DNA from: Mucilaginibacter conchicola
Lineage (GTDB): Bacteria; Bacteroidota; Bacteroidia; Sphingobacteriales; Sphingobacteriaceae
NCBI RefSeq assembly: GCF_003432115.1
Contig: NZ_QWDC01000004.1
Location: 310,765 to 374,764, forward strand
Reading direction: 5' to 3'
Length of the DNA stretch: 64,000 nt
The notes beneath the pieces were generated by a model, which saw nothing but the letters and a program-made list of their open reading frames with translations, was not told the origin of the DNA and made no database searches. The translations under genes and the position numbers were made by a program. Below, piece after piece: positions 24,864-48,249 of this stretch; positions within the stretch are counted from its first letter, which is position 1, and the number at the start of each line of letters is the position of its first letter.

Positions 24864-24952
24864 ATCATGCCGAATTTATTTCGGCATCTCACTTGAACGC
24901 CTTCTCTGTAAGTAGGGGATTGCCACGTCGCTATCGCTCCTCGCAATGACGA
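24864..24952. repeat. Chimeric palindromic element (family E left end, family A right end), copy 1
   Basis: The left part 24864-24893 is itself a hairpin (gccgaa ttta ttcggc) flanked by tcat and atctcac. The right part 24915-24952 is a family A right half (attgccacgtcgct...ctcgcaatgac). The outer ends therefore come from two different families. Confidence 0.75.
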
Positions 24953-25812: not shown

Positions 25813-25917
25813 CGTCATGCCGAATTTATTTCGGCATCTCACCTGCTAATCCCCGACTTACAGAGCCGCTCTATATATCGAGGATTGCCACGTCGCTGCC
25901 GCTCCTCGCAATGACGG
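25813..25917. repeat. Chimeric palindromic element (family E left end, family A body), copy 2
   Basis: It begins cgtcatgccgaatttatttc (family E) but from about 25848 matches the centre and right half of the family A copy at 765-870 (ccccgacttacagagc...ggattgccacgtcgct...ctcgcaatgacgg). The 381-nt gap 25757-26137 holds this element, the one at 25948-26034 and the purF promoter. Confidence 0.75.
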
Positions 25918-40993: not shown

Positions 40994-41022
40994 TTGTCAT
41001 GCTGAGGAACGAAGCATCTTTT
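40994..41022. repeat. Half element, family D (CATGCTGAGGAACGAAGCATC type)
   Basis: ttgtcatgctgaggaacgaa is followed by gcatctttt. Only the left half is present; the sequence after it (to 41188) is A/T-rich with no other feature I can name. Confidence 0.55.
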
Positions 41023-43915: not shown

Positions 43916-44590
43916 ATGAGCAAGAATATTGTAGTGGCCATTGATGGCTATTCGTCATGCGGGAAAAGTACTTTGGCTAAGGCATTGGCTAAAAAGCTGC
44001 ACTATATATATGTTGATAGCGGCGCAATGTATCGCGCTGTAGCCCTTTATTTTTTGCGCAATAATGTGGATACTCAAAACCACGAGCAGATAGAAGAGGC
44101 CCTAAAAAATATTCATCTCAATTTCCACTCCCGCGATTACGAAACCCACATCACCCTTAACGAAGAGGAAGTATCTGAAGAGATCCGCCAGATGCCTGTA
44201 TCAGAAAAAGTGAGCGAGGTATCGGCTTTGAAAGAAGTACGCCGCGAAATGGTGAAACAGCAGCAGCGTATGGGCAAGTCCAAAAACATTGTAATGGATG
44301 GCCGCGATATAGGCACTGCCGTGTTCCCTGATGCATCCCTCAAAATATTCATGACAGCAGACCCGGCCGTACGCGCCAAACGCCGCTACGACGAGATCCA
44401 CGCCAAGAACCCCGACATCACCTTAGAAGAGATCTTCGAGAATATTGCCCACCGCGATTACCAGGATACCACCCGTGCCGAAAGCCCGCTGGTACGCGCC
44501 CAGGATGCCATTATACTGGATAATACCGATCTGACGCCTGAGCAGCAGCTACAGTTTGCACTGGATAGGGTGGAAAGTTTGAATCGTTGA
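43916..44590 (+). CDS. cmk: Cytidylate kinase
   Basis: Phosphorylates CMP/dCMP with ATP. 224 residues, P-loop GYSSCGKS at 11-18, 'YVDSGAMYRAVAL', 'IVMDGRDIGTAVFPDA' and 'DYQDTTRAESPL' are family signatures; length is standard. Start ATG 43916 is preceded at 43901 by TATCTTCG, one mismatch from a -7 box. It is followed by a repeat island that contains the GIY-YIG unit. Confidence 0.95.
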   Translation: MSKNIVVAIDGYSSCGKSTLAKALAKKLHYIYVDSGAMYRAVALYFLRNNVDTQNHEQIEEALKNIHLNFHSRDYETHITLNEEEVSEEIRQMPVSEKVSEVSALKEVRREMVKQQQRMGKSKNIVMDGRDIGTAVFPDASLKIFMTADPAVRAKRRYDEIHAKNPDITLEEIFENIAHRDYQDTTRAESPLVRAQDAIILDNTDLTPEQQLQFALDRVESLNR

Positions 44591-44653: not shown

Positions 44654-45073
44654 TGTCATTTCGAACGAGCGTAGCGAGGAGAAATCTTCTACGCTAAGTG
44701 CTTACGGAGGAAAGGCAACTAACCATTCACTTCATCATTCAAAAACCTCCACTCAGGATTGTTAGAATTGATCAACGCGTATTTTTTTTCGCGTCGCCAT
44801 TTCTTTATCTCTTTCTCGCGTTCAATAGCGTGTTCAATATTTGAGAAATGCTCGTAGTGAACTAAATAATGGCAGTAGTATTTTGCTGTGAAAGACTTGC
44901 CGTTTCCTTTGCCTTCGCGATGCTCGAATAATCTTCTGCTTAAATCATTGGTAACACCAATGTACAACACAGTGTTTTCGTAATTGGTGGTGATGTAAAC
45001 ATAGTAATTGTAATTCCACATAGTTACTTATCGCTTTCAGAAGATTTCTCCTCGTACCTCGTTCGAAATGACA
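44654..45073. mobile_element. Inverted-repeat unit enclosing a GIY-YIG nuclease gene (family B ends)
   Basis: The left end 44654-44690 reads tgtcatttcgaacgag, six or so variable bases, then gaggagaaatcttct. The right end 45039-45073 is its reverse complement with one small length difference. The only gene inside, a 100-residue GIY-YIG nuclease, fills nearly all the space. The ends match the gene-less element at 2901-2999. No target-site duplication was recognised. Calling it mobile is inference from structure. Confidence 0.6.
44719..45021 (-). CDS. Small GIY-YIG nuclease (UPF0213/YhbQ-like)
   Basis: A 100-residue, single-domain GIY-YIG endonuclease. The two-part motif is VYI at 8-10 and YIG at 20-22, followed by catalytic arginine region 'DLSRRLFEHR' (26-35) and metal-binding E69 in 'IEREKEIKKW'. 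The subfamily is common and multi-copy in Bacteroidota; its cellular role is not established. Its stop is 28 nt from the left repeat arm and its ATG 17 nt from the right arm, so the gene is wholly packed within the inverted repeats. Confidence 0.9.
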   Translation of the reverse strand: MWNYNYYVYITTNYENTVLYIGVTNDLSRRLFEHREGKGNGKSFTAKYYCHYLVHYEHFSNIEHAIEREKEIKKWRREKKYALINSNNPEWRFLNDEVNG

Positions 45074-45096: not shown

Positions 45097-45561
45097 TTAC
45101 TCCCCCTTAAACTGCACAGCCTTCACGCCAAACTTGTTTAAAAAATCAACGCCTTCATCGCTGGCGAGCCCTTTGTATTGGGCGTATGATTTATCAAAGA
45201 AAACATGTTTGATACCTGCAGAGAATATCAGCCTTGCGCATGGCAAACATGGCGACAGTGTGGTGTACAGCGTAGCACCTTCCAAATTAGCACCGTTTTT
45301 AACGGCGTAAAGGATAGCATTTTCTTCGGCATGCAGGGCAAGGGAGCAACTGCCTTTTGAGTCGCGGGCGCAGCCTGTATCGGGCCATTCCTCGTCGCAG
45401 TTGTGGGTGCCTGCAGGGGGGCCGTTATACCCGATAGAAATAATGCGGGTATCTTTAGCTAAAACGGCACCGACCTGTGCCTTAACGCAATGTGAGCGTT
45501 GGGCCAGGTCGGTTGCCAGATTCATAAAAATATGTTCGAAACTGGGTTTCATGTTGTTCAT
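45097..45561 (-). CDS. dCMP deaminase (ComEB-like)
   Basis: 154 residues of the zinc deaminase fold. HAE at 77-79 supplies a zinc histidine and catalytic glutamate, and C105/C108 in SPCLPCA complete the site; the extra 'NCDEEWPDTGCAR' cysteines (C55, C64) suit the second zinc of dCMP deaminases. It makes dUMP for thymidylate synthesis. ATG at 45561 is used; M4 at 45552 is an alternative. Lies between family B and family J repeats. Confidence 0.92.
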   Translation of the reverse strand: MNNMKPSFEHIFMNLATDLAQRSHCVKAQVGAVLAKDTRIISIGYNGPPAGTHNCDEEWPDTGCARDSKGSCSLALHAEENAILYAVKNGANLEGATLYTTLSPCLPCARLIFSAGIKHVFFDKSYAQYKGLASDEGVDFLNKFGVKAVQFKGE

Positions 45562-48141: not shown

Positions 48142-48234
48142 TGTCATTGCGAGGAGCGACAGCGACGCGGCAATCTCATAGGCAACCGCGCGTTTTTGTC
48201 CTGTGAGATTGCCACGCTATCGCTCGCAATGACA
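48142..48234. repeat. Family A palindromic element, complete copy
   Basis: tgtcattgcgaggagcgac on the left and gctatcgctcgcaatgaca on the right, with 'gcggcaatctca' against 'tgagattgccacg' inside. The outer flanks are ta on both sides, possibly a duplicated dinucleotide. It lies between the LysE gene and the purA terminator. Confidence 0.85.
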
Positions 48235-48249
48235 TATATTATACAACAA

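Follow-up and report, generated by a model that had tools for sequence, protein, structure and literature searches.

The window, by which we mean the whole stretch of 64,000 nucleotides that was analysed, holds a 420-bp element (44654-45073) between cmk (43916-44590, + strand) and a dCMP deaminase gene (45097-45561, - strand), two convergent genes whose names rest on the reading of their translations only. The element comprises the following features.

44719-45021, - strand: GIY-YIG nuclease gene (100 aa), enclosed by two inverted arms
44654-44690, + strand: arm 3' of the nuclease gene, a REP-like unit (TGTCATTTCGAACGAGCGTAGCGAGGAGAAATCTTCT) with the TGTC tag outermost
45039-45073, - strand: arm 5' of the nuclease gene (TGTCATTTCGAACGAGGTACGAGGAGAAATCTTCT), inverted, with the TGTC tag outermost
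45022-45038, - strand: left inner end (GAAAGCGATAAGTAACT), ahead of the ATG

The outer parts of the arms (44654-44669 and 45058-45073) are 100% complementary over 16 nt, and so are the inner parts (44675-44690 and 45039-45054, also 16 nt). A sequence-only reading of this locus had placed the nuclease gene wholly inside the inverted arms, with 16 outer and 15 inner identical bases; the placement and the outer count held, and the inner count is corrected to 16 nt. The observation of a gene inside an inverted repeat is real and far above chance, because TGTCATTTCGAACG has 135 exact sites (67+68) in the 5.3-Mb genome and the pattern read backwards has none.

The 100-residue protein matches the Pfam GIY-YIG profile PF01541 with 54 bits (cut-off 22.6). 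Residues Y9, Y20, R30, H34, and E69 are invariant in all 41 relatives, and N88 is kept in 40 of the 41. By this sequence criterion, the window protein is a member of the GIY-YIG superfamily in which the catalytic Tyr, Arg, His, Glu, and Asn residues are present. Its predicted structure (pLDDT 89) is an ordinary GIY-YIG domain, and GIY-YIG entries (Slx1, UPF0213, UvrC, I-TevI) top the list of structure comparisons with Z of 5-8, unrelated rows having Z≤3.5. The closest solved sequences by profile are the UPF0213/YhbQ-like GIY-YIG proteins of PDB entries 1zg2 and 1ywl (E of 6e-12 and 1e-8), which were deposited as hypothetical proteins without assigned function. The gene is under purifying selection, with omega of 0.03-0.08 (0.03-0.05, where computable, among the three species carrying the element between the deaminase gene and cmk). 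A phage origin of the nuclease was rejected: no phage record matched the protein, and 7 plasmid records did.

The REP-like units have a common layout (C/TGTCAT-NNN...N'N'N'-ATC), in which a C/TGTC tag and AT are followed by three stem letters, then by a loop, and finally by the complement of those letters with a closing AT and C. The stems seen include TTC, CTC, TGC, GCT, CCT, TCT, GCC, and CCC. The regular expression used to find the units itself required complementarity, and stem closure was retested without that demand. In the flanks of nuclease genes, 219 of 389 GTCAT sites close with a complementary half-stem and AT, against a mean of 48 and a maximum of 68 when stem letters are shuffled among sites; in other taxa, 264 of 508 sites close, against 36 by shuffling. 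The stem letters vary between nuclease clades yet remain self-complementary. The units of the window element belong to the TTC class; their perfect stem has 5 bp, the loop is long, and the tail reads CT. A single TTC-class unit folds no better than shuffled DNA, and we found no support in this comparison for the single arm as a strong hairpin. The strong one is the whole short element (z of -9.1), the whole 93-bp element folding at -32 kcal/mol.

Sites of TGTCATTTCGAACG mostly form inverted pairs that bound gene-less elements of about 93-160 bp. We read 43 distinct elements of this kind, with lengths of 86-158 bp and 93 bp as the commonest, and found two interior types. Type A1 (CTTCTGCAAGCGATA...) has inner-end letters in common with the gene-bearing element: A1 elements such as G000:C1:860443-860535 (93 bp; G000 is the genome of the window) keep in BLAST, in colinear order, some 46 nt from its left end and some 41 nt from the right one. 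The colinearity of the arms is automatic, since they are inverted copies of each other, and the informative part is the approximately 10 nt past the left arm; these first letters of the left inner end are found again in many gene-less 93-bp elements of the same genome. Gene-less elements therefore have their tips and, partly, their inner ends in common with the gene-bearing one. Type A2 (CTTGTTA...) is the interior of the elements around L002 (G000:C9:165243-168467), the second nuclease gene of the TTC stem class in this genome. L002 is not inside an element: complete ones stand on either side of it, in a cluster of about six. The window itself contains further units.

2901-2999, no strand: gene-less element with arms of the same stem class as the window nuclease element, interior A2 (CCTGTTA...), 15-nt perfect outer inverted repeat
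766-869, no strand: pair of TGC-class units forming an element without a gene; this stem class is the cognate of other nuclease clades (e.g., L005 of the same genome)
48142-48235, no strand: pair of TGC-class units forming an element without a gene, TGTC tag
25813-25917, no strand: GCC-class unit (25813-25838, + strand) plus TGC-class unit (25883-25917, - strand)
24918-24952, - strand: lone TGC-class unit
40995-41018, + strand: lone GCT-class unit

The element at 2901-2999 had been put forward as having the same ends without the gene. This held for the arms; the interior is of a different subfamily (A2), and the 93-bp copies such as that at G000:C1:860443-860535 are closer counterparts of the gene-bearing element. 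The third small nuclease gene of the genome (L005, G000:C8:1017090-1020311) is interrupted by a TAG and has TGC-class arms on both sides; judging from sequence alone, it would be a decaying copy of a second cognate nuclease-repeat pair.

The arm-gene-arm block occurs as a discrete unit at several loci. Two elements of genome G053 (L155 and L159) are 89% identical across 453 bp, and a third in G038 (L160) is about 80% identical. Their homology runs exactly from the CGTC to the GACG tips, with unrelated DNA beyond. No direct repeat or target duplication flanks these three, in the few cases inspected, and they do not meet the target-site duplication criterion of a classical MITE or DDE transposon. 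Other near-identical pairs lie within one genome (L351/L352 of G134, 99% over 420 bp; L384/L387 of G114, 94% over 481 bp). Their boundaries are less exact, as on one side the homology carries on beyond the unit, by a few bases up to some tens. Just downstream of L155 (G053:C44:5546-6715), the flanking sequence (QLINELNPDWNDLYDTLL) reads as the C-terminus of a further GIY-YIG gene, and it is possible from this flank that elements insert into or beside one another.

Three species, G000, G057, and G028, carry the element at the deaminase-cmk site, and the nine other species read lack it there. The sequence-only reading had proposed to look for empty sites, and orthologous sites without the element were thus found; the exact empty-site junction at the window locus remains unresolved by alignment because the intergenic DNA of the sister species is unalignable. 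Genome G006 has at this site a gene-less element of another class, and the deaminase locus of G006, G008, and G058 holds other repeat families. In comparisons between these carriers, dS is above 1 or saturated, yet the arms can still be recognised almost base for base. Given this saturation, the low omega, and the recognisable arms, we infer that gene and arms were kept together or were renewed by conversion. The same reading would have been refuted by a gene kept in place with random arms in sister strains, and this is not what is seen: the arms are conserved in the sister species G057 and G028.

Nuclease homologues are found in 57 of the 61 genomes of the genus. REP-like units lie on both sides of 57 of these 112 homologues and of none of the 30 control genes; roughly one homologue in two is without exact units on both sides. 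The nuclease flanks hold 215 units in 66 kb, compared with 18 in 101 kb of deaminase loci, 6 of the latter belonging to nuclease elements. In 36 of the 57 both-sided cases the tags point outward on either side, the gene taking the loop position; in 12 (-,+) the innermost units have the reverse orientation, that of a gene between complete elements (as for L002). Mapped on the nuclease tree, the stem class changes 8 times, against a mean of 37 with shuffled labels. When labels were shuffled only within genomes, the mean was 28.7 and the minimum 20 (500 trials), which removes the effect of genomes simply holding one repeat type.

Beyond the genus, inverted arms are present at 61 of 108 homologue loci and at 2 of 107 random blocks from the same contigs. 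This set includes a few further Mucilaginibacter, many other Bacteroidota, and loci labelled Chloroflexota, Clostridia, Verrucomicrobia, and candidate phyla; the taxa come partly from metagenome bins, and labels may be wrong. The sequence-only reading had proposed to test whether palindromic arms flank such nuclease genes more than expected, and they do so within the genus and beyond it. Homologues without palindromic arms in other genomes would have counted against its inference, and inverted arms do occur in other genera and phyla. Repeat copy number is also higher in genomes with the matching nuclease (median of 19 versus 2, Mann-Whitney p=9e-5), with clear exceptions. For this test, genomes were assigned to the clade by hand, using match scores together with the tree, and without a correction for relatedness. 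Many TTC-class repeats are found in genomes without a match to the corresponding nuclease (62 in G006, 47 in G026, 46 in G022), so repeats can persist or move without it. Taken together, the sequence data show that nuclease clades are paired with repeat classes in the genus and beyond.

We consider it likely (probability of about 0.72) that the small stand-alone GIY-YIG nuclease and the REP-like palindromes form one cognate system, built like REP-RAYT with another enzyme; cutting and transposition are inferred and not shown. In the mechanism we propose, the nuclease would bind its own unit as a single strand or an extruded hairpin and cut adjacent to the GTC tag. The ends would then be copied to other sites by replication or repair, without target duplication, and this copying would spread gene-bearing and gene-less elements alike. 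The cost to the host may be small, and a possible gain is that the repeats modulate recombination or DNA uptake. The earlier inference that the nuclease recognises or spreads the palindromic elements is therefore supported, with recognition, cutting, and the mechanism of spreading remaining inferences. Against this interpretation stand the homologues without exact units on both sides, the TTC-class repeats in genomes with no match to the nuclease, and the weak folding of a single TTC-class unit. Neither cutting nor movement has been observed, and to our knowledge there is no precedent for the supposed transposition chemistry of the nuclease.

Four other explanations were weighed. Intergenic clutter, i.e., bidirectional terminators gathering by chance anywhere, this gene included, would fit a locus between convergent genes, where such repeats gather, and the other repeat families at the deaminase locus of G006, G008, and G058. 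It is contradicted by the control genes, the random blocks, and the within-genome label shuffle, and is all but excluded. The nuclease gene could instead be a homing-type parasite that invades existing gene-less elements, splits them, and copies itself in via a cut at intact ones, something else spreading the palindromes. The gene does sit in the loop position of the element in the 36 outward-tagged cases, GIY-YIG homing enzymes such as I-TevI have the same fold, and repeats are present in genomes without the matching nuclease. However, the 12 cases with reversed innermost units place the gene between complete elements, whole arm-gene-arm blocks at unrelated loci are not given by homing into allelic sites alone, and inner ends as well as arms are common to gene-bearing and gene-less elements. 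We regard homing as unlikely.

A third alternative is that an IS200/IS605-type Y1 transposase (RAYT) mobilises the palindromes, the nuclease gene merely lying in REP-rich DNA. Y1 transposases are indeed present in 5 of the 6 genomes tested, but within genomes the stem class goes with the clade of the nuclease. This account is very improbable. None of the 14 Y1 genes of these genomes has real C/TGTC units nearby (there was one chance-like match) and several have unrelated terminal repeats, and we rejected Y1/RAYT as the partner. The Y1 loci L396, L399, and L401 (G000 and G056) have long inverted repeats of their own (e.g., with GCTTTCAGCTT), unrelated to C/TGTC units; we infer from their sequences that a second enzyme is paired here with repeats of its own, separately from the nuclease system. 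The remaining alternative, a domesticated regulator of recombination or DNA uptake, has a modest probability. The nuclease would cut incoming or lagging-strand single-stranded repeats without mobilising them, and ordinary recombination between repeats would move copies. In its favour are the purifying selection, the gene kept in place in three species, and the neisserial Ssn nuclease and NTS repeats, which reportedly act on transformation. On the other hand, genomes carry several diverged and recently copied nuclease loci (up to 15 matches, in G113), more like a selfish element, and the recurrent in-frame stops among homologues fit such an element better than one housekeeping gene.

The cognate nuclease-repeat system that we favour can be compared with several known ones. 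Di Nocera et al. (2013, PMC3733652) described C/TGTC-tagged REPs in Bacteroidetes and Neisseria, with high copy number and dimers, the CGTC type apparently lacking a dedicated transposase. The present units resemble these in the CGTC/TGTC tag at one end, the complementary AT first in the stem, the high copy number, and the dimers, but they are paired with a GIY-YIG nuclease. The published REPs have an 8-9 bp stem, a 4-5 nt loop, and a CCA-like tail, features not met by the window TTC-class units with their shorter perfect stem, longer loop, and CT tail. For these reasons, and because single units fold no better than shuffles, we class the latter as a sister type, outside the four published CGTC REP families. 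REP/REPIN-RAYT systems (REPtrons) also have a nuclease-type gene flanked by cognate palindromes scattered in the genome. They are defined by a Y1 HUH enzyme (RAYT) and GTAG-tagged REPs, and the window system, with GIY-YIG and C/TGTC tags, meets neither criterion. The REP/RAYT comparison made in the sequence-only reading thus holds by analogy only, the enzyme being unrelated and the Y1 transposases lacking units. Neisserial intergenic mosaic elements (dRS3 pairs around 70-200 bp RS cores, PMC10745880) are likewise short inverted-repeat units about a short core in hundreds of copies, but their description mentions no nuclease gene in the core.

The Ssn proteins (Nat Commun 2025) are reported to be site-specific single-stranded GIY-YIG nucleases with cognate NTS repeats in Neisseria and thousands of homologues. 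The likeness lies in a small GIY-YIG enzyme with hundreds of cognate genomic repeats and many homologues of differing specificity. The window system fits this description in that a stand-alone GIY-YIG enzyme of small size has many cognate repeats in its own genome. Single-strand cutting and an effect on transformation, both reported for Ssn, would hold for the window nuclease by analogy only. Judged by this layout of enzyme and repeats, the window nuclease probably belongs with the Ssn nucleases. If the Ssn report holds, the pairing of nuclease and repeat is already known in principle, and what is new here is the Bacteroidota system, the copied arm-gene-arm block with gene-less derivatives, and the within-genome test of specificity. 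Ssn descriptions are not known to include such a mobile block, and no paper joining GIY-YIG to REP-type repeats was found in the literature we searched by full text.

Under the main reading, CGTC-type REPs, said in 2013 to lack an enzyme partner (PMC3733652), are supplied with one. C/TGTC palindromes reach high copy number in several phyla, and that survey left open which enzyme, if any, makes or moves them. Each repeat class is paired with a clade of small GIY-YIG nucleases in many phyla and the exact element ends are given, so that 30-nt oligonucleotides and a single 100-aa protein would suffice to put the question to a bench test. The nuclease-target pairs form a large natural set, from which a specificity code might be read. 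A bolder reading takes the elements as a distinct class of mobile element in several phyla. A GIY-YIG nuclease would there take the place of a transposase and spread a block flanked by its own REP hairpins, leaving no target duplication and with gene-less derivatives alongside; it would be the missing partner of all C/TGTC-tagged REPs. Here the balance tips slightly towards doubt.

Two other observations concern small GIY-YIG genes more generally. Outside the window, a gene of about 91 aa in the same genome (L003, G000:C10:72879-76094) lies amid tRNA-like sequence, with the tail GAGGTCATCGGTTCGACTCCGATATTCTCCAC just upstream and again downstream and no REP arms seen around it; it may have inserted at a tRNA gene with duplication of the 3' end. 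Finally, a conserved leader, T(C/T)TGTAAGGA, is found about 30 nt upstream of the nuclease match at L355, L357, L370, L371, and L383-L387 (G125, G203, and G114, from several genera), and could be a ribosome-binding or regulatory signal.
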